This document shows positions 30,488 to 57,139 of a DNA stretch of 64,000 bases, one piece after another. This stretch comes from Occallatibacter savannae. Lineage in GTDB: Bacteria; Acidobacteriota; Terriglobia; Terriglobales; Acidobacteriaceae. A program made the translations under genes and the position numbers. The DNA lies in the NCBI RefSeq assembly GCF_003131205.1, contig NZ_QFFY01000001.1:124001-188000 (forward strand). The letters run 5' to 3'. Within the stretch, counting starts at the first letter, position 1; the number at the start of each line of letters is the position of its first letter. Below the pieces are notes generated by a model. That model saw only the letters and a program-made list of their open reading frames with translations. It had not been told where the DNA came from and did not search any database.

Positions 30488-30919
30488 TTGAAGAAGCTTC
30501 TGGTAGTGGCCGCGGCCGTGGTTTGTCTAATGATGGGCACGTCGTTTGTGCATGCGCAGGATGCTGGAATCGCAGGGAAGTGGCACTTTGTGCTTTCGAC
30601 ACCGGGCGGAGACCGGGAGGTCGATGCAGACCTGACGGTGGACAACGACGGGAATGTGACAGGGAAGTGGGGACCGGCGGATGTGGCGGGCACCTACAAG
30701 GAAGGGAAGCTGGCGCTGAAGTTTCCGTTCACTTCAGAAGAGGTGAGCACGACAGCGGATATGAGCATCGACGGAAAGCTGAACGATGCCGGGGCGCTGG
30801 CGGGAGACTGGTCGTTCTCGGAATACAACGGGACGTTTGAGGCGAAGCGGCCTGCGGCGACGCCGGCGGGTGAGACTCCGGCGGCTCCGACGGGGACGGA
30901 AGCAAAGCCGCAGTACTGA
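30488..30919 (+). CDS. secreted protein of about 120 residues, beta-rich
   Basis: The TTG at 30488 has GAAGGAG 8 nt upstream. The signal peptide is KKLLVVAAAVVCLMMGTSFV then HAQ. The mature part has alternating polar and hydrophobic strands, such as GKWHFVLSTPGGDREVDADL, GKLALKFPFTSEEV and GDWSFSEYNGTFEAKR. It ends in a Pro/Ala/Thr-rich tail. The repeated G-x-W pattern suggests a lipocalin-like or META-like sandwich, but no family is secure. It lies 90 nt after pncB and before a tandem repeat block. Confidence 0.7.
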   Translation: MKKLLVVAAAVVCLMMGTSFVHAQDAGIAGKWHFVLSTPGGDREVDADLTVDNDGNVTGKWGPADVAGTYKEGKLALKFPFTSEEVSTTADMSIDGKLNDAGALAGDWSFSEYNGTFEAKRPAATPAGETPAAPTGTEAKPQY

Positions 30920-36558: not shown

Positions 36559-38007
36559 CTAGTCGTCGAGGTCGGAGGGGACGAGGGCGAACTTTTTCAG
36601 CTTGTAGCGGAGGGCGTCGCGGCTGATGTCGAGGAGGCGTGCGGCGTTGGACTGGTTTCCGTTTGCCTGGGTCATGGCGAGCTCGACCATGGAGTGTTCG
36701 ACTTCTTCAAGAGAGGTTCCGCCTTCGGGGATGTAGAGGCGCGGGAGCGAGCGGCCGTTGGGAAGGCGGCGGCCGGCGTCGGGCGGGGAGGTCTGCTCGA
36801 AAGCTGTGCGTCCGTTCGATTCGCCGACAGAGAAGGGAAGATAGATGGGGCGCAGGTAGGACTCCTCTTCGAGGATCATGCCGCGCTCGATGGTGTTTTT
36901 GAGCTCGCGGACATTGCCGGGCCAGTTGTGGCTGAGGATGAGGCTGCGGGTTTCGCCGGTGAGGCCGCGGACGGATTTCTTAAAGCGGCGATTGTAGCGA
37001 TCGATGAAGAAGTCGACGAGGGGGAGGATGTCTTCTTTGCGATCGCGGAGCGGCGGGATGAAGATGGCGATGATGGCTAGCCTGTAGAAGAGGTCCTGGC
37101 GGAACTGGGATTCGCGGACGGCTTTCTCGAGATCGCGGTTCGAGGCCGCGATGACGCGGACGTCGACCTGGATATCGCGAAGTCCGCCGACGCGGCGCAC
37201 GACCTGGTCCTCAAGGACGCGGAGCAGTTTGGCCTGGAGGACGGGAGAGAGCTCGCCAATTTCGTCGAGGAAGAGGGTACCGCCGTCGGCTGCTTCGAAG
37301 AGGCCCTTCTTCATCTGCTTCGCGTCAGTGAATGCGCCTTTCTCGTGGCCGAAGAGCTCAGCTTCCATGAGGGTTTCGGGGATGGCGGAGCAGTTGATGG
37401 CGATGAATGGCTTGTCTCGGCGGGCGCTTTCATAGTGGAGAGCTTTAGCGATGAGGTCTTTGCCAGTGCCGCTCTCGCCCTGGATGAGGATCGTAGAGGC
37501 TTCGCAGGAGGCTACCTTGCGGACGAAGTGCATCAGCTCGGTCATCTTTGGCGATGCGCTGACGATGCTTTCGAAGCCGATGCCGGTTCGCGGCCGAGCA
37601 CGGGATGACTGCGGGTCGTTGCGGCGGGCGGCGGACTCTTCGAGCGTGTTCTGAATGAGTTCGTGGAGAAGTTCGAAATCGATCGGCTTGCCGACGAAGT
37701 CGACTGCGCCGAGCTTAATGGCGGCTTTAACGTCATCGAGCTGCGGATCGGCAGTGATCATGATGACGGCGGGCTGCTCGGGACCCTTTTTCAGCTGGAC
37801 GAGCTGATCGAGGACTTCGATTCCGGTGATGTCGGGGAGACGTACATCGAGGAGGACAAGGTCAGGGGATTCGGCTTCGGCGAGACGGAGAGCGGGTTCG
37901 CCGGCTTCGGCTTCCAGGACGTGGAAGCCCCATTCTTCACATTTCTGACGAAGCGACCACCTTACGAGGCGTTCGTCGTCGACGATGAGGATTTTTTCTG
38001 CTTGCAT
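36559..38007 (-). CDS. NtrC-family sigma-54-dependent response regulator
   Basis: The 482-residue protein has a receiver domain (about 1-120; phospho-Asp in LVLLDVRLPDI, Lys in AVDFVGKPID), an AAA+ sigma-54 activation domain (about 150-390) and a Fis-type helix-turn-helix (about 440-478; GNQSNAARLLDISRDALRYK). The AAA+ part has Walker A GESGTGKDLIAKALHY and the sigma-54 contact loop GAFTDA. It activates promoters of the -24/-12 type when phosphorylated. The likely kinase is the HAMP histidine kinase at 39423-40547. The rpoN gene lies at the far right end of the window. A TGTGA-N6-TCACG site lies 154 nt upstream. Confidence 0.96.
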   Translation of the reverse strand: MQAEKILIVDDERLVRWSLRQKCEEWGFHVLEAEAGEPALRLAEAESPDLVLLDVRLPDITGIEVLDQLVQLKKGPEQPAVIMITADPQLDDVKAAIKLGAVDFVGKPIDFELLHELIQNTLEESAARRNDPQSSRARPRTGIGFESIVSASPKMTELMHFVRKVASCEASTILIQGESGTGKDLIAKALHYESARRDKPFIAINCSAIPETLMEAELFGHEKGAFTDAKQMKKGLFEAADGGTLFLDEIGELSPVLQAKLLRVLEDQVVRRVGGLRDIQVDVRVIAASNRDLEKAVRESQFRQDLFYRLAIIAIFIPPLRDRKEDILPLVDFFIDRYNRRFKKSVRGLTGETRSLILSHNWPGNVRELKNTIERGMILEEESYLRPIYLPFSVGESNGRTAFEQTSPPDAGRRLPNGRSLPRLYIPEGGTSLEEVEHSMVELAMTQANGNQSNAARLLDISRDALRYKLKKFALVPSDLDD

Positions 38008-38378: not shown

Positions 38379-39215
38379 GTGTCTGTCTTCTTCCCCATAG
38401 CAGTCGTCCGTTCATGGACTGCTCTGAACTGCATTCTGCTTTTGATTTGTGCGTCTGGTGCTGCCAGAGCTGATGTGGGCGAGAGGAACTCGTACGCGGA
38501 CGGCTGGCAGTCTTCGGCGAAGCTCTCAGCTGAGGACGACGCACGGCTGACAGATCTCATGAGCCGTCTAAAAGTTGCCGAGAGAGGAAGCGACTTGTCC
38601 GGCGAGGCCGATCTGCTCAATTCCATCGGACTCATCCATTACAAGGCCGAGGAGTTCGACGATGCCATCGAGGCATTCACGCAGGCACTGGACTTGCGTC
38701 GAGGGCTAGGTGACGAGCGCGGACAAGCTACAGAGCTTGCTGAGCTTGGGAGCACGTACGGGCAAAAGGGAATGGCCCGGGAGGCGATTGAGGTCTACCA
38801 GAAATGCGTTCCGTTATGGAAGAGACTGGACGTTGCTCAAGAGGCGGCGATCCTTGGACGCATTGCTGAGATTTTCCGCCAGCTTGGAGATCGTGGAGGC
38901 GCGCTGCATTTCAACCAGCAGGCGGAGGCAGCGTTTGAGCAGGCCGGTGACAAGGCAGGACGTGCGGCAGTCTTGAACAACATGGGACTCGCCTATTTCG
39001 TGACAGGCGACAAGAAAAGAGGAAGAGAGTACTTTGGCAAGGCGTTGGCTGCTTATCACGACGCGGGGAACAGCCTGGGGGAGGCGGCAGCACAGATGAA
39101 TCTTGCTGCCGGCTACAGTCTGTCGGGGGACCAGGCGAAGGACTGGCATTGTTCGAGAGCGCAGCGTCGGTGCAACGTCAGCGGGGAGATCGAGCGGGAG
39201 AGGCGGCGGTGCTGA
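38379..39215 (+). CDS. secreted TPR-repeat protein, frameshifted in the last third
   Basis: The GTG at 38379 has GAGGAGG upstream and begins a signal peptide (residues 1-31). About four TPR motifs follow, each with the alternating helix pattern: NSIGLIHYKAEEFDDAIEAF, LGSTYGQKGMAREAIEVYQK, ILGRIAEIFRQLGDRGGALH and LNNMGLAYFVTGDKKRGREY. After SLSGDQAK the frame continues as DWHCSRAQRRC and stops. At 39141-39142 two bases (GA) stand where three are needed; the other phase then reads LALFESAASVQRQRGDRAGE and carries on the next TPR. A single missing base explains this. TPR proteins mediate protein contacts; the neighbours are a kinase and a response regulator. Confidence 0.8.
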   Translation: MSVFFPIAVVRSWTALNCILLLICASGAARADVGERNSYADGWQSSAKLSAEDDARLTDLMSRLKVAERGSDLSGEADLLNSIGLIHYKAEEFDDAIEAFTQALDLRRGLGDERGQATELAELGSTYGQKGMAREAIEVYQKCVPLWKRLDVAQEAAILGRIAEIFRQLGDRGGALHFNQQAEAAFEQAGDKAGRAAVLNNMGLAYFVTGDKKRGREYFGKALAAYHDAGNSLGEAAAQMNLAAGYSLSGDQAKDWHCSRAQRRCNVSGEIERERRRC

Positions 39216-39439
39216 GGGATATTGGGTTGGTCTACGCGCGCCTGGGGCAGAATCAACGAGCCGAAAGCTATTGCGACCTCGCACTTTCGATTTATCGCGA
39301 ACTGGGGAATCGAGAGGCTGAGAAGAGTACGCTCGCGACACTTACCTCTCTGGACAATCGGCGACGCGGGAAATCGAAAGTGAAGCTCGAAGGGCAGATC
39401 GAGATGGCTTCCTCTCCGCCACTTAGCCCACCGCGGTAG
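39143..39439 (+). pseudogene. displaced C-terminal TPRs of the preceding gene
   Basis: In this phase LALFESA joins directly to the QAK of the preceding frame and then shows a full TPR (VLRDIGLVYARLGQNQRAES, then YCDLALSIYRELGNREAEKS). It lacks a start codon and ribosome-binding site of its own. The end overlaps the 3' end of the convergent histidine-kinase gene by 17 nt. Together the two frames would make one TPR protein of about 350 residues. Confidence 0.6.
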
Positions 39440-40547
39440 CGATCGGCAGGTTGTCGATCTCGGTCGAGGACTGCACGAAGGGCAGGAGCACTTCGAAAGT
39501 GCTGCCCTTGCCGGGTTCGCTGGTGACGGTGATGAGTCCGTTGTGCTCGTCGACGATCCGGTTCACGAGGGAGAGGCCCAGGCCTGTGCCGGTGGGTTTC
39601 GTTGTGTAGAACGGGCGAAAAATCTGCGCGATCTGTTGCGGAGTCATGCCCCGGCCGGTATCGGTGACACGGATCGCAGCGCGATCGTCGTTTGAACCGA
39701 GGGTGACAATGACGGAACCCTTGCCGTCGATGGCCTGCACGGCATTGAGCAGGAGGTTGAGGACGACCTGGTGGATTTGATCGCTGTCGTGCTCGACCTC
39801 GTCGAGCCCAGGTGCGGTGATGACGTCGATGCGAATCGGTTTGGATAGCACCTGCTGACGGGCGAGCATCACGGCGTGCTCGATGGTGGTGTTGAGGTTG
39901 CTCTTCATCATGCGGGAGGGATGAGGGCGCGCAGTCTGCAGGAGGTCGGTGAGAATGCGGTTGATCTGATCGATCTCGAGGCGCACGTCTTTCACCATGG
40001 CGCGAGCGGGGCTGGTGGAAGGGAGATCGCGACCGATGATGTCGATGACGCCGGCGATTCCAGCGAGAGGATTTCGGATCTCGTGAGCAAGCCCGGTCGC
40101 CAACTCGCCGAGTGTGGCCAGGTGTTCGGCGCGCGACATCTGTGTGCGATGCATGGTTTCTATCTCCTGACGGCTTTCTTTTAACTGCTGCACCATGTAA
40201 TTGAAGTTGCGACCGAGGTCTCCGATTTCGTCGTTGCTGCGGCAGAAGGAGACGGTGGTGTCGAGATTTCCGCGGCTGACGAGGGCCATCTTCTCCTGAA
40301 GCTCGACCATGGGGCGCTGGATGAGGTAGGCGAGGACGGCGATGGTGACTCCGCAAACGATGACGGAGCCCGCCCCTGCCAGGAGAAGGAGGGCGTCGCG
40401 ATCGGGATCGCGCAGGGTCAGGGTCGCGATGGTGAAGAGAACCAGGCCCGCAAGGAGCACGCAGACGACGGGCAGAAGTGCTTTGATCTGCCAGTTGACG
40501 CGAACTCTGGGCACGTTGGACGTCCTCCCGATCAGCCGGTTCAGCAA
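39423..40547 (-). CDS. HAMP-domain sensor histidine kinase
   Basis: The 374-residue kinase has two transmembrane helices (about 22-48 and 52-78), a HAMP-like linker (about 78-132; RGNLDTTVSFCRSNDEIGD) and a HisKA domain whose H-box is LATGLAHEIRNPLAGIAG (about 150-167). The HATPase_c domain has the N-box QVVLNLLLNAVQAIDG, a DTGRGM block and TGLGLSLVNRIVDEHNG. Length and order resemble NtrB/ZraS/AtoS-type partners of NtrC-family regulators. The response regulator 2.5 kb away on the same strand is the likely partner, although a TPR gene lies between. Very little periplasmic domain is present, so the signal may be sensed within the membrane. Confidence 0.94.
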   Translation of the reverse strand: MLNRLIGRTSNVPRVRVNWQIKALLPVVCVLLAGLVLFTIATLTLRDPDRDALLLLAGAGSVIVCGVTIAVLAYLIQRPMVELQEKMALVSRGNLDTTVSFCRSNDEIGDLGRNFNYMVQQLKESRQEIETMHRTQMSRAEHLATLGELATGLAHEIRNPLAGIAGVIDIIGRDLPSTSPARAMVKDVRLEIDQINRILTDLLQTARPHPSRMMKSNLNTTIEHAVMLARQQVLSKPIRIDVITAPGLDEVEHDSDQIHQVVLNLLLNAVQAIDGKGSVIVTLGSNDDRAAIRVTDTGRGMTPQQIAQIFRPFYTTKPTGTGLGLSLVNRIVDEHNGLITVTSEPGKGSTFEVLLPFVQSSTEIDNLPIATAVG

Positions 40548-40905: not shown

Positions 40906-41376
40906 ATGAAACTGCTTCCTCTTGTTCGGTCGCGACGCTTTCCGGGCAGTGCGGTGTTGGCTGCCGGTCTCCTGGTGTTTTGCATCCTTTCCGGGACGAG
41001 CGTTCATGCGGCGGTGCACCCTGTGCCGCTGGACAAGAACGTTGACGCGAAGAAGTGCCTGGAATGTCACGAGGAGAAGACGAAACACAAGTTCGTCCAC
41101 TCGGCGATGCAGGGCGGATGTCTGACGTGTCACGAGGTGCGGGTCAGCAAAGACGTGACGCGGGTAAAGCTGACGACGGCGACGACCTCGGCGCTGTGCT
41201 TGTCGTGCCATGAAGACAAGACGGCGAAGAACATCAAGGGCGTGGTGCATCCGCCGGCGGTGCGCGATTGCCTGACGTGCCACGATGCGCACGCGAGCGA
41301 AAACAAGAATCAATTGCTGAAGCCGGCTTCCGGAGACGGAAAAGAGAATCTGTGCCTGAGCTGTCACGCGACCTGA
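40906..41376 (+). CDS. multihaem cytochrome c, N-terminal part, ends at an in-frame TGA
   Basis: The ATG at 40906 begins a signal peptide (about residues 8-38; AAGLLVFCILSGTSVHA). Five haem sites follow: CLECH, CLTCH, CLSCH, CLTCH and CLSCH, in the doubled-CXXCH style. The frame stops at TGA (41374-41376) after CLSCHAT. The same frame is open again after the TGA and gives THVGEKGSRHAALDAGCDTC with eleven more haem sites. This looks like one 16-haem gene broken by a single codon. A normal product here would be an exported electron-transfer protein. A CRP-like site and a weak sigma-54 match lie upstream. Confidence 0.8.
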   Translation: MKLLPLVRSRRFPGSAVLAAGLLVFCILSGTSVHAAVHPVPLDKNVDAKKCLECHEEKTKHKFVHSAMQGGCLTCHEVRVSKDVTRVKLTTATTSALCLSCHEDKTAKNIKGVVHPPAVRDCLTCHDAHASENKNQLLKPASGDGKENLCLSCHAT

Positions 41377-42387
41377 ACGCATGTGGGGGAGAAGGGGAGC
41401 CGTCATGCGGCGCTCGATGCGGGTTGTGACACCTGCCACACGACACATAAGACGGGAGCGGAGCCGACTGCGGAGAACCGGTTCCACTTGACCAAGGCCG
41501 CGCCGGCGCTATGCGTGGATTGCCACGATGTGAAGGATTCAGAGCTACAGAAGAAGCACAACAATCAGCCGTTTGGGACCGCGAATTGTCTGCAGTGCCA
41601 CGATCCGCACCAGTCGGATCAGCCGAAGCTGATAGTGAAATTCCAGCATGCGCCGTTCCAGGGAAATGGATGCGACACGTGCCATCAACCGGCGAAGGAC
41701 GGGAAGGTCGTCTTGACGCAGACAGACGCGAAGCTGTTGTGCGTGACCTGCCACGAGGACAAGGCCAAGGAGATTGAGTCGGCAAAGGTGCCGCATCCGG
41801 GCGCGGCGGGAGATTGCACGGACTGCCACAATCCCCATGCGAGCAGTCAGCCGGGACTGCCGAAGACGGATTCGGTGACGATCTGCCTGGGATGCCACAG
41901 CGATATCGAGGAGCTTCAGAAGAAGCCCGCGCATCACCAGCCGGCGTTCGCGCAGGGGTGTTCGACGTGTCACACGCCACACGGTGGAGAGAACGATCAT
42001 TTGCTGCGAGCGAAGGGGAACGCGCTGTGCCTGGAGTGCCACGGGCCCGAGTCGCAGGCGCAGAAGGACGCGGCGAATCATCTGCTGACGATCTTCAACG
42101 GCAAGGTCCGGCTGCCGGAGGACTATTACCAGACGAACAAGGTTCCGATTCTGCCGCTGCGCTACGGGCTGGGTCACCCGGTGGAGTATCACCCGGTTTC
42201 GGACGTGATGGATCCCACGAACCAAGCGAAGGTAAAGACGCCGCTGAGTTGCCTTTCATGCCATCAGCCGCACGCTTCGAGCCAGGCCGGGTTGCTGGTG
42301 AAGGATCAGGCGAACAATATGGCTTTTTGCGACAACTGCCACAAGAACCGGCTGAACATGAAGGAGACGGTGCTGCCTGGCAAATAG
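41377..42387 (+). CDS. multihaem cytochrome c, C-terminal part, downstream of an in-frame TGA
   Basis: This part continues the same reading phase as the preceding cytochrome and holds eleven CXXCH sites, including CDTCH, CVDCH, CLQCH, CVTCH, CTDCH, CLGCH, CSTCH, CLECH and CDNCH. A GTG at 41383 could restart translation, but it has no signal peptide, and haem can only be attached outside the cytoplasm. The piece is therefore best read as the rest of the broken gene. The full product would be about 493 residues with 16 haems. The C-terminus has a non-haem stretch (about 42090-42230), then two last haem sites. The NHL-protein gene follows after 26 nt. Confidence 0.75.
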   Translation, partial: THVGEKGSRHAALDAGCDTCHTTHKTGAEPTAENRFHLTKAAPALCVDCHDVKDSELQKKHNNQPFGTANCLQCHDPHQSDQPKLIVKFQHAPFQGNGCDTCHQPAKDGKVVLTQTDAKLLCVTCHEDKAKEIESAKVPHPGAAGDCTDCHNPHASSQPGLPKTDSVTICLGCHSDIEELQKKPAHHQPAFAQGCSTCHTPHGGENDHLLRAKGNALCLECHGPESQAQKDAANHLLTIFNGKVRLPEDYYQTNKVPILPLRYGLGHPVEYHPVSDVMDPTNQAKVKTPLSCLSCHQPHASSQAGLLVKDQANNMAFCDNCHKNRLNMKETVLPGK

Positions 42388-42413: not shown

Positions 42414-43709
42414 ATGTTTAGCTTCCTCTACAAATCGATGCGAATGCGGAAAGTGCTGGGGCTGGTGCTGCTGGGGAGTGCGTGCGGGTTCATGCTCGCT
42501 CCGACGGTCCATGCGGACAAGAAGAAGAAGGCCGCGACGGCTGAGCCGGTGCTGGGGCCGCGGAAATTCAATTTCGATCCGACGAAGCTGGTGTGGCCGA
42601 GCCCGCCGAATGTCGCGCGCGTTAAGTGGCTGAACTACTTCGCCGGACAGAAGATCGATTACCGGCAGAGCGAGAAGACGAAGTCGAAGGCAAGCTGGAT
42701 GGATCGGCTGGCGGGGGGGCAGACAGAGGAAGAGAAGTTCAACCCGAAGGATTTTCCGTTCCAGATGATCGGGCCGTATGGGATCGCGATCGATTCAAAG
42801 GGCCTGGTGTATGTGGCGGATCAGAGGGTCGGAGCTGTGTTCATCTTCAACACGGAGACCCAGGATGTGCAGATGATCCGGAACGGCTTTGAGGCGCATT
42901 TCGGGTGGGTGAATGGGCTTGCGATTGACGATGACGACCGGTTGTTTGTCTCAGACGGGAAGCTGCACAAGGTGCTGATTTTCAACGCGAAGCATGAGGT
43001 GGAGAACCAGATCACGGAGGGATTGCAGGATCCGGTGGGGCTGGCGATCGATACGACAAACCGCTTTCTGTATGTCGTGGACACGCAACAGGACCAGGTG
43101 ATCGTGTATGACGCGGATACGCTGAAGCTGTTGCGGAGGATCGGAACGGGTGGGAAGAACCACTTTCTGACCACGCCGGGAGATTTCGGCGCGCCCCAGG
43201 GAGTTGCGGTGGATGCGGACGGAAACGTGTATGTGACGGACACGATGAACAATCGGGTGGAGATCTTCGATGCCGATGGGGAGTTCATCAGCGAGTTTGG
43301 AAAGCACGGAGATGGACCGGGATATTTTGCGCGTCCGAAAGGGATCGCCATCGATGCGGATGGTCACATCTGGGTAGCAGACCAGATGCAGGACAGACTG
43401 CAGGTGTTCAATCGCGAAGGAAAATTGCTGACGTATGTCGGGATGGGGCACGGCGAGCTTCCGGGTCAGTTCAAAACGCTGATGGGCGTGGCAATCGACA
43501 AGAGGAACCGGGTATTCACGACAGAGCAGGAGCCGGGACGGCTGCAGGTGTTCCGATACGTGACGGAAGCCGAAGCCGTGGAGGCGAAGAAGCAGCGAGA
43601 CGAGGAGTTGGAGAAGGCAGCGGCGCGCAGGCAGAAGGCAGCCGCTGCTGCGCCGGAGAGCAAGCCGGCAGAGGCCTCTCCAAAAGGGGCTGAGACTAAG
43701 CCGAACTGA
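42414..43709 (+). CDS. exported NHL-repeat beta-propeller protein
   Basis: The ATG at 42414 has GGGAGATCAGGA upstream and begins a signal peptide (MRKVLGLVLLGSACGFMLAP, cleaved near VHA). Six NHL-type blades follow: IGPYGIAIDSKGLVYVADQR, WVNGLAIDDDDRLFVSDGKL, DPVGLAIDTTNRFLYVVDTQ, APQGVAVDADGNVYVTDTMN, RPKGIAIDADGHIWVADQMQ and TLMGVAIDKRNRVFTTEQEP. The last 50 residues are a charged Glu/Lys/Ala/Pro tail. NHL propellers are scaffolds or redox-complex parts. It follows the multihaem cytochrome gene by only 26 nt, so the two probably form one exported electron-transfer unit. Confidence 0.9.
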   Translation: MFSFLYKSMRMRKVLGLVLLGSACGFMLAPTVHADKKKKAATAEPVLGPRKFNFDPTKLVWPSPPNVARVKWLNYFAGQKIDYRQSEKTKSKASWMDRLAGGQTEEEKFNPKDFPFQMIGPYGIAIDSKGLVYVADQRVGAVFIFNTETQDVQMIRNGFEAHFGWVNGLAIDDDDRLFVSDGKLHKVLIFNAKHEVENQITEGLQDPVGLAIDTTNRFLYVVDTQQDQVIVYDADTLKLLRRIGTGGKNHFLTTPGDFGAPQGVAVDADGNVYVTDTMNNRVEIFDADGEFISEFGKHGDGPGYFARPKGIAIDADGHIWVADQMQDRLQVFNREGKLLTYVGMGHGELPGQFKTLMGVAIDKRNRVFTTEQEPGRLQVFRYVTEAEAVEAKKQRDEELEKAAARRQKAAAAAPESKPAEASPKGAETKPN

Positions 43710-44853: not shown

Positions 44854-45168
44854 ATGACTCCTGCGATTCCTACGCGCCGGCACGCGAAGACTCCTCCGCC
44901 CGGCGAAACGGGCCAAGAGGCACTTTATCTTCGCTCTTTGAGCGAGCGCCAGGTTCCGGTCTCGGTGAAGCTGCGCGGCGGCGAAACGGTGCGCGGCTGG
45001 ATTGAGTATTTCGACGACGGCATGCTGCGCCTGACCCGGGAGGGCAAGCCGAATCTCTTCATCTACAAGCACCAGATCGAGACGATCACGGAGGCGGGAA
45101 AGCGCCGGGCGCCGCGTAACGGCGCGGGTGTGCCGCAGACGCCAGGTGCGGTAAAGGCAGGCGAGTGA
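44854..45168 (+). CDS. Hfq-like Sm-fold RNA-binding protein
   Basis: The 104-residue protein has an Sm1 stretch (EALYLRSLSERQVPVSVKLR) and an Sm2 stretch (LFIYKHQIETITEAG) that match the layout of Hfq, including the YKH motif at about residues 72-74. Between them, GGETVRGWIEYFDDGMLRLT is the usual middle strand, with the Gly and Phe-Asp positions kept. A 25-residue N-terminal extension and a 25-residue Ala/Gly/Pro tail are extra. Hfq proteins are RNA chaperones. The sequence is divergent, so its RNA-binding surface may differ. The last 4 nt overlap the next gene (GTGA), so translation is coupled. Confidence 0.78.
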   Translation: MTPAIPTRRHAKTPPPGETGQEALYLRSLSERQVPVSVKLRGGETVRGWIEYFDDGMLRLTREGKPNLFIYKHQIETITEAGKRRAPRNGAGVPQTPGAVKAGE

Positions 45169-54036: not shown

Positions 54037-55479
54037 TTATTGGACGGAGTAGGAGACGTTGGTGCGATGGAGGACGTTGTAGTTCTGGTCGAGGTCGAGG
54101 ACGGTGACGTAGTGGCTGCCGGGAGAGAGGTTGTAGTACTGGTTGACGTCGGCGCCGAGGTAGCGGCCGAGTTTGTGGCCATTGTCCCAGACCTGAACCT
54201 GGCTGATCGGCACTGATTCGGTTGCGTGGGCGACGACGTGCACTGTGGTCATGTTGAAGACTTCGCTCGGCGTGGGAGAGATGATTTGCACGCCCTCGAT
54301 TGCAGCCTGCACCGTGTGGGTGACGGATGCCTGGTGAATGGGATTGTAAGACGAATCGTAATCAACGACGGTGGTAGTGTGCGTGCCGGGCGCGAGCGAG
54401 TAGACGGCGTCGATGTCGGTTCCGTAGACGCCAAGCTTCTTGCCGTTATCCCATACTTGCGTCTGGCTGACGGTTTTGGATTCTGAAGCGGAAGCGATGA
54501 AGCGCACGGAGCCGGTTTCGACGGAGCCGTTGCCGGGTGTGGAGATTATGATGCCGCTGGTTGATGGAGTGGTAGCGGACTTGAAGAAGTCGGCCATGGG
54601 AGCGGCGGTTGCGGCTGCTCCGGGGCAGGTGGAGAGACCCATGACGGCGCAGATGGTCTTGAGCACATTCTGGTTGTGATAGGTGATGGTGGATTTGTAT
54701 CCAGCCTTTACTTGCGGGCCGATGACGAGGTTGGCGGTGCGGCCGCCGCAGCCGGAAGACACGGTCGAGGAGCAGCGATTGTCGGTGTAGAGCGTGCCTT
54801 CATCCCAGAGGATGAAGAGAATGCCATCGCCGCCGGGAGCGAATTCGGGACGGGCGAGGATCGCGGGAACGTGGTCCTGAAGCCACTGGTCGGCGGATGA
54901 GAGCGTGCCGTTGTGCGCGTCTTCGTCGGAGTCCGGCGTGATGTAGATGTAGTTGGGCGTAGCGTTGTTGGCGATGTCGGTAGCTAACTGGGTATAGGGA
55001 ACGCTTTTGATGTCCTGCCCAGTGCCGGGGCAGACGTCGGAGAAGTCAATGAGTGGATTGTGGCGGCGGTAGTAGAGATTATTGGTGCCGCCGTAGACGC
55101 CCTGGAAACCGGCGTAGGGCATGTTTTCCTGATAGGTCTTCCATTTATAGCCGCTCTTCAGGAGTTCGCGAACGACATTGTCCTGCATGTGAGCGCAGGA
55201 GGTGGTGTCGTTGTTGAGTTCGACGGGAGCGCCCGCGACGAACCACATGAGCGCGGGAAGCGAGCTGTGTTGATTGGCGTAGAACTGAGTGGCAAGTCCG
55301 TACTGCTTTATGAGTTCGTTGTAATACGGCATTTGCGTATTGCCGACTACGTCTTCGTAACTATGGTTTTCTTCCGTAATGATCCAGACGTGCGAGGAAC
55401 GCGGCACGGTCTGCGCATAAGTGAATCCGGTGGAGAGAGCGAGTAAGAGCGCGGACACACGTAGAGCGAGCGACTGCAT
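54037..55479 (-). CDS. secreted phosphoesterase-family protein with two C-terminal Ig-like domains
   Basis: The 480-residue protein has a signal peptide (residues 1-22). The catalytic domain (about 25-300) is of the acid-phosphatase/phospholipase C type: HVWIITEENHSYEDVVGN carries the metal-ligand Glu-Asn-His start, and YANQHSSLPALMWFVAGAP, YRRHNPLIDFSDVCPGTGQD and FILWDEGTL follow. The C-terminal part (about 305-480) has two similar beta sandwiches (GSVRFIASASESKTVSQTQV and VHVVAHATESVPISQVQVWD), probably cell-surface or substrate-binding. Family members cleave phosphomonoesters or phospholipids. A close paralogue follows directly, on the same strand. Confidence 0.88.
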   Translation of the reverse strand: MQSLALRVSALLLALSTGFTYAQTVPRSSHVWIITEENHSYEDVVGNTQMPYYNELIKQYGLATQFYANQHSSLPALMWFVAGAPVELNNDTTSCAHMQDNVVRELLKSGYKWKTYQENMPYAGFQGVYGGTNNLYYRRHNPLIDFSDVCPGTGQDIKSVPYTQLATDIANNATPNYIYITPDSDEDAHNGTLSSADQWLQDHVPAILARPEFAPGGDGILFILWDEGTLYTDNRCSSTVSSGCGGRTANLVIGPQVKAGYKSTITYHNQNVLKTICAVMGLSTCPGAAATAAPMADFFKSATTPSTSGIIISTPGNGSVETGSVRFIASASESKTVSQTQVWDNGKKLGVYGTDIDAVYSLAPGTHTTTVVDYDSSYNPIHQASVTHTVQAAIEGVQIISPTPSEVFNMTTVHVVAHATESVPISQVQVWDNGHKLGRYLGADVNQYYNLSPGSHYVTVLDLDQNYNVLHRTNVSYSVQ

Positions 55480-55705: not shown

Positions 55706-57139
55706 TTACTGGACGGAGTAGGTGATGTGGGTGCGGTGCAGGACGTTCCAGTTCTGGTCGAGGTCGAGGACGGTGATGTTGTGCGTGCCGGGATCGAGGC
55801 TGAAGTACTGGTTGACGTCGGTGCCGATGTAGCGGCCGAGCTTGACGCCATTGTCCCAGACTTGAACCTGGCTGACGGGAACGGACTCACTTGCATGAGC
55901 GACGACCTGCACGGTTGTCATGTTGAAGGATTGACCCGGAGCGGGCGATACGACCTGCACGCCATCGGTCGGGCTTTGCACCGTGTAGGTCACCGATGCC
56001 TGATGAAGCAGGTGTTGGGATGCATCGAAGTCCTTGACGACGGTGGTGTGCGGTCCGGGAGTGAGATTGAACGTGGCGTCGATTTGATTGGTGTAGACGC
56101 CGAGTTGCTGTCCGTTGTCCCAGACCTGAGTTGCGCTAACGGGTTGATCTTCGGATGCCGTGGCCAGAAGATGCACCGGACCTGTGATGTTGGATCCGTT
56201 GCCGGGCGTGGAGATGATGACGCTGTTGGACGGCGAGTCGGAAGACGACTTGAAGAAGTCAGACATGGGCTGCGCGTCTTGTGCCGCGCCGGGGCAGGGC
56301 GAGAGGCCCATGGCGGCGCAGACGGTTTTAAGCACGCTTTGATTGTGGTAGGTGATGGTGGATTGATATCCCGGCGTGACTTGCGGACCGATGACGAGGT
56401 TCGCGGTGCGGCCACCGCAACCGGTGGAGTCGGTGGCTGAGCAGCGATTGTCTGTGTAGAGGGTGCCTTCATCCCAGACGATGAAAAGGATGCCGTCGCC
56501 GCCGGGTGCGAATTCAGGAAGGGCGAGGATGGCGGGAAGATTGTCCTGGAGCCATTGATCCGCGGCTGGGAGGGTGCCGTTGTGGGCATCTTCGCCGACG
56601 TTGGGGGTGATGTAGGCGAAGTTGGGCGTGGTGTTGTTGGCGATGTCTTCGGCGAGCTGGGAATAGGGAACGCTGTTGGTTTCCTGGCCGGTGCCGGGGC
56701 AGACGTCGGAGAAGTCGATCAGAGGATTGTGGCGGCGATAGTAGGAGCCGTCATAGAGGCCGAGAAAGCCCGCCGAGGGCAGATCTCTCTGGTAGCTCTT
56801 CCATGTGTAGCCCTGCTTGAGGAGTTCGCGGACGACGTTGTCCTGATTGTGGGAGCAGGAGGTGGTGTTGTTATCGAGCTCAATTGGACCGCCGGCGACG
56901 AGCCACATCAGGGCAGGGAGAGAGCTGTGCTGATTGGCGTAGAACTGCGTGGCCAGTCCGTATTGCTGGATGAGCTGGTTGTAGTAGGGCATCTGCGGAT
57001 TGCCAACTACGGACTCATAGCTATGGTTTTCTTCGGTGATGATCCAGACGTGTTTCGATCTGGGGACGGACTGAGCGTTGAGCATTGCGGCAATGGCGAG
57101 GAGGGCGAGCAGAGCGATACGACCAGAATGCGACCTCAT
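55706..57139 (-). CDS. secreted phosphoesterase-family protein, paralogue of the neighbour
   Basis: The 477-residue protein matches the adjacent one along its whole length: signal peptide, then HVWIITEENHSYESVVGNPQ, YANQHSSLPALMWLVAGGPI, YRRHNPLIDFSDVCPGTGQE and FIVWDEGTLYTDNRC. Two Ig-like domains end it (about 300-477; AHASESVPVSQVQVWDNGVK). The two genes lie in tandem, 226 nt apart, and have clearly diverged in the Ig-like parts. A recent but not very recent duplication is likely. Both would be upstream-to-downstream on one transcript. Substrates are unknown; metal and active-site residues look intact in both. Confidence 0.88.
   Translation of the reverse strand: MRSHSGRIALLALLAIAAMLNAQSVPRSKHVWIITEENHSYESVVGNPQMPYYNQLIQQYGLATQFYANQHSSLPALMWLVAGGPIELDNNTTSCSHNQDNVVRELLKQGYTWKSYQRDLPSAGFLGLYDGSYYRRHNPLIDFSDVCPGTGQETNSVPYSQLAEDIANNTTPNFAYITPNVGEDAHNGTLPAADQWLQDNLPAILALPEFAPGGDGILFIVWDEGTLYTDNRCSATDSTGCGGRTANLVIGPQVTPGYQSTITYHNQSVLKTVCAAMGLSPCPGAAQDAQPMSDFFKSSSDSPSNSVIISTPGNGSNITGPVHLLATASEDQPVSATQVWDNGQQLGVYTNQIDATFNLTPGPHTTVVKDFDASQHLLHQASVTYTVQSPTDGVQVVSPAPGQSFNMTTVQVVAHASESVPVSQVQVWDNGVKLGRYIGTDVNQYFSLDPGTHNITVLDLDQNWNVLHRTHITYSVQ

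Follow-up and report, generated by a model that had tools for sequence, protein, structure and literature searches.

The 64,000-nucleotide stretch of the Occallatibacter savannae genome analysed here (hereafter the window, G000:C1:124001-188000, in an assembly of 6.28 Mb and 18 contigs) contains a multihaem c-type cytochrome gene interrupted by a TGA codon. This raises the question of whether the codon is decoded, is an error in the assembly, or truncates the gene. In the translation, an ATG at position 40906 of the window is in frame with the TGA at 41374..41376 (+ strand), and the same phase continues without a further stop to a TAG at 42385-42387. As the first-pass annotation described, the TGA splits a frame with 16 CXXCH motifs (40906-42387, counted by eye on the translation) into a first part with five (40906..41376, +, 156 codons) and a continuation with 11 (41377..42387, +). 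Its claim that only the first part has a signal peptide agrees with our inspection: the N-terminus, MKLLPLVRSRRFPGSAVLAAGLLVFCILSGTSVHAA, appears by eye to be a Sec-type signal peptide (40906..41013, +, 36 codons, with the cleavage site estimated by eye from the translation), and none is seen on the open reading frame downstream of the TGA, which starts at a GTG at 41383 and encodes 334 amino acids. Both parts match the Pfam doubled-CXXCH family (PF09699, E = 5.4e-18 for the first part and 8.1e-53 for the second).

When the frame is read through the TGA, the protein has eight doubled-CXXCH stretches (PF09699, E = 9.4e-67) and belongs to the doubled-CXXCH multihaem cytochromes, with a score of 220.9 bits against a cut-off of 20.6. 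It also exceeds the cut-off of TIGR01905 (189.1 against 25.2 bits). The score for the DmsE family (NCBIfam TIGR03508) is 168.1 bits, with the best stretch at 253-400, and is below the curated cut-off of 192.2, placing the protein outside this family. Over 273-386 it is similar to chain A of PDB entry 6r2q (E = 8.9e-22). The file labels this chain as cystathionine beta-synthase; we take it to be MtrA of the MtrCAB complex. Judged by these similarities, the read-through protein appears nearest to the DmsE/MtrA-type decahaem cytochromes, with which it shares the doubled-CXXCH stretches, the DmsE score and the similarity to 6r2q chain A, although it has 16 haem motifs where they have 10. A Pfam scan of 11 proteins encoded nearby, a subset of those in the window, recognised no porin partner. 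Nothing on this cytochrome gene was found in the literature consulted, which included passages of PMC9012536, PMC1088965, PMC1794560 and PMC8235581, and the word 'cytochrome' is absent from the main text of PMC5029168 and PMC2398784.

Full-length orthologues are present in seven of the 59 other genomes searched, all of the same genus (68-89% identity, none with an internal stop), and in many of the remaining genomes the query hits other cytochromes only weakly and over short stretches. The nearest relative (G001) encodes the same protein in one open frame of 521 codons, with 89% identity. With the sequence downstream of the TGA as the query, a search of GTDB contigs detected 19 loci, all in MAG records (Acidobacteria, Acidobacteriaceae and Terriglobia). 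Counting the seven as well, there are 26 sequences, each one open frame with 16 CXXCH motifs, and the removal of two duplicates leaves 24 distinct orthologues. The comparison at the TGA that the first-pass annotation had called for gives a sense codon in every relative found: the column is Gly in 24 of 24, encoded by GGC, GGG, GGA or GGT, and the residues at -2 and +1 are variable. Thus the proposed Gly codon is borne out and the alternative proposal of Arg is not. The split frame is not a chance arrangement, since the G001 protein is one open frame and all 24 orthologues are continuous at this point. Orthologues naturally split at the same place, the outcome named as contrary to the annotation's reading, were not found (0 of 24); together with the missing signal peptide on the second part, this leads us to reject a natural two-gene split.

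The gene is unevenly distributed among close relatives. A full-length match was detected in seven of 35 genomes of the same genus. Among the 19 of these with a completeness of 90% or more and a contamination of 5% or less, four have a full-length match and 15 do not, indicating that lacking the gene is common. In its own genome the next match is a single frame on contig C4 (34% identity across about 110 residues). No second strain was found among the 59 genomes or in the GTDB contig scan.

The genome should decode selenocysteine, and a reading of the TGA as this residue, giving a full-length 16-haem selenocytochrome, therefore had to be tested. A tRNA-Sec with anticodon TCA (C1:309206, 69.7 bits) and adjacent selA and selB genes on contig C2 all score above their cut-offs, and a selD-like frame, identified by eye, lies just upstream of selA/selB. 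Outside the window, a formate dehydrogenase gene (L070, G000:C1:52918-55932, -) has one in-frame TGA followed by a strong SECIS-like hairpin (SECIS_3 match of 31.9 bits, E = 2e-4, below the Rfam gathering score of 63) and is likely a genuine selenoprotein of this organism. There is also a precedent in print: ExtKL is listed as a selenocysteine cytochrome in passages of PMC13188914 and proposed as selenocysteine-containing for Geobacter in passages of PMC5877670, according to which the proposed joint product spans two locus tags (gsu2937-gsu2936). ExtKL, a multihaem cytochrome, thus looked like a split gene too. Conservation on both sides of the stop would also fit a decoded TGA. However, unlike ExtKL, the cytochrome described here has Gly in its orthologues, no SECIS element and no match to the ExtKL model (NF040886), which matches nothing in the genome at E 0.001 and is not listed for the read-through protein. 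Neither Cys nor a conserved TGA, either of which would be expected at a selenocysteine position, occurs in this column in any of the 24 orthologues.

The search for a SECIS element points the same way. Rfam gave no SECIS match at the cytochrome TGA. According to passages of PMC13188914, the bSECIS rules require a hairpin 16-37 nt after the TGA, a loop of 3-9 nt with G in its first two places, and an energy of at most -7.5 kcal/mol. As coded here, they fail at the cytochrome site, where the best hairpin reaches -4.7 kcal/mol, a value equalled or beaten at 542 of 1000 random window positions. The control hairpin of the formate dehydrogenase reaches -18.1 kcal/mol, and only 17 of 1000 random positions are as good. 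Since 357 of 1000 random positions pass these rules, they are loose, and the cytochrome site fails even so. Fold z-scores are +0.76 over 70 nt and at best -1.33 over 40 nt for the cytochrome site, and -0.2 to -0.9 at 45-60 nt and -1.86 at 40 nt for the control. Given this weak control on the longer segments, z-scores alone are indecisive and the rule-based test and Rfam decide. We therefore reject selenocysteine decoding on the basis of the orthologue residue, the SECIS search and the conservation pattern, and consider it very improbable. A lineage-specific change from Gly to selenocysteine just after the fifth haem site, with decoding through an atypical SECIS or through SelB acting without a standard hairpin, would be a touch less probable again.

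Non-specific readthrough, or a reassigned TGA, might yield enough full-length cytochrome, and the intact downstream frame would suit it. However, TGA terminates four of the 19 window genes checked, three exactly where the alignment to G001 ends and one seven codons past it, which shows that TGA does act as a stop. Among the 49 window genes compared with G001, it occurs internally nowhere else. A different meaning of TGA in this organism is rejected on these grounds, and the lack of both a SECIS and a Cys partner makes readthrough improbable; taken together, we give these routes to a full-length product very little credence. Of the three explanations that the first-pass annotation left side by side (nonsense mutation, sequencing error and readthrough), the first two stand and the third is unlikely.

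Both parts of the frame are under purifying selection. By a simple counting approach, and with synonymous sites close to saturation, dN/dS is 0.056 before the TGA and 0.043 after it in the comparison with G001, and 0.083 and 0.041, respectively, in the comparison with a second genome, G002. The window gene and that of G001 are 84.7% identical at the nucleotide level over the mature region. After the stop, parsimony assigns 12 amino-acid changes to the window's branch and 15 to that of G001 (6 and 12 under a stricter polarisation), whereas roughly 300-390 would be expected if the gene were neutral. Even if all 12 changes on the window's branch came from relaxation, the relaxed time would span less than about 5-7% of the branch (simple counting gives only a rough limit here), and a real stop would thus be recent. 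In the absence of relaxation after the TGA, either the stop arose very recently, or it is an artefact, or it is read through. The locus shares with pseudogenes a premature stop where the orthologues (24 of 24) have an open frame; relaxed selection and further lesions were looked for in the cytochrome gene and not found, and since only an old stop would be expected to show them, their absence is compatible with a young stop.

The same undiminished constraint after the stop is what an intact gene predicts, and thus the missing decay is explained equally well by an error in base calling or polishing, or by strain mixing, in which case the codon would really be Gly in the organism and its 16-haem cytochrome intact. 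Two further points are in favour of an error: all 19 relatives detected in the genome collection come from MAG records, and a gene 2.2 kb upstream appears to carry a one-base frameshift. In this TPR-repeat gene (38379-39439, +) the frame changes between 39131 and 39137 relative to a 45%-identical homologue in G002, and the repeats go on in another frame. The two frame-breaking differences are separated by an intact histidine kinase gene, and their proximity fits local assembly errors and local gene decay alike.

Against an error stands the rest of the window. At an identity of at least 55%, 49 window genes, the cytochrome included, could be aligned to G001 over 16,166 codons; three further comparison rows below this identity were left out, and the TPR gene is not among the 49 because nothing in the compared stretches of G001 matches it. 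The cytochrome alone has an internal stop (one of 49), and no gene has a frameshift in its aligned parts. A generally poor assembly is thus not supported by the remaining 48 genes, which are clean wherever they align. Moreover, random substitution errors seldom create stops, so that a single nonsense error would be accompanied by many more missense and silent errors. The other stops flagged in the comparison lie upstream of a gene start (1069), at and beyond a shorter, unalignable C-terminus (30917 and 30941), at the end of a 37%-identical match that is one of the three omitted rows (35606), and upstream of the cytochrome start (40864); a row in two frames at 54-57 kb is a tandem paralogue pair, each member being one open frame. 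We regard an error as a possible explanation, but a rather doubtful one.

We therefore rank a young nonsense mutation as the most likely explanation, followed by a base error, with a recoded codon far behind. Probably, a recent nonsense mutation at an invariant Gly codon has truncated an otherwise intact gene for a 16-haem MtrA/DmsE-like c-type cytochrome. The direct support for this consists of the stop itself, the sense codon in all orthologues found, the constraint on both sides, the lack of a second stop or frameshift in the gene and the lack of a recognisable SECIS; that the change is real in the DNA, that readthrough does not occur and that the product is useless or reduced is what we infer. 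In the proposed course of events, the mutation would have hit a Gly codon that is invariant among the orthologues found, and translation would end once the fifth CXXCH has been made. The truncated product would retain its signal peptide and five haem sites; at most, a short pentahaem protein would be exported. The maturation of c-type haem proteins takes place outside the cytoplasm. The remainder would stay without haem, because even a product from an internal start would have no export signal.

The nonsense mutation may have been part of a slightly larger change. The codons at -2 and +1 of the TGA also differ from those of the nearest relatives, so that the change may not be a single isolated substitution. 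The segment 41368-41379 has seven differences from G001 in 12 bases, a density that no other 12-base segment of the gene reaches; when segments of 15 to 24 bases are counted, the peak of divergence lies elsewhere in the gene. Aside from the site itself, no template for the changed patch with fewer than two mismatches was found in the genome.

Like ordinary bacterial pseudogenes with a premature stop, the locus combines a single stop in a conserved gene with intact relatives and a patchy distribution; unlike them, it has as yet undergone no further decay. If the mutation is real, it represents a very early stage in the loss of a patchily distributed cytochrome. The locus is also a warning, since a cytochrome frame split by an internal TGA, in a genome expected to decode selenocysteine, mimics a new selenoprotein of the kind proposed for ExtKL, and simple tests (the residue in orthologues, and a SECIS search with a control from the same genome) argue against that reading.

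Three neighbours of the cytochrome gene are intact and have conserved positions in G001 and G002. An NHL-repeat beta-propeller protein is encoded 26 bases downstream (42414..43709, +; Pfam NHL, E = 3.7e-29) and adjoins the cytochrome in G001 and G002 as well. Upstream, both syntenic in these two genomes, are the divergent sensor histidine kinase (39423..40547, -; Pfam HATPase_c, HAMP and HisKA) and a sigma-54 response regulator (36559..38007, -; Pfam Sigma54_activat and Response_reg). Elsewhere in the window, a small secreted-type protein (30488-30919, +) is about 36 residues shorter at its end than its G001 counterpart, and the two ends are unalignable. The paralogues at 54037-55479 and 55706-57139 (-) are tandem secreted phosphoesterases, the first of which matches Pfam Phosphoesterase and Big_7. 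Finally, 44854-45168 (+) encodes an Hfq-like protein of 104 residues (Pfam Hfq, E = 1.4e-9).
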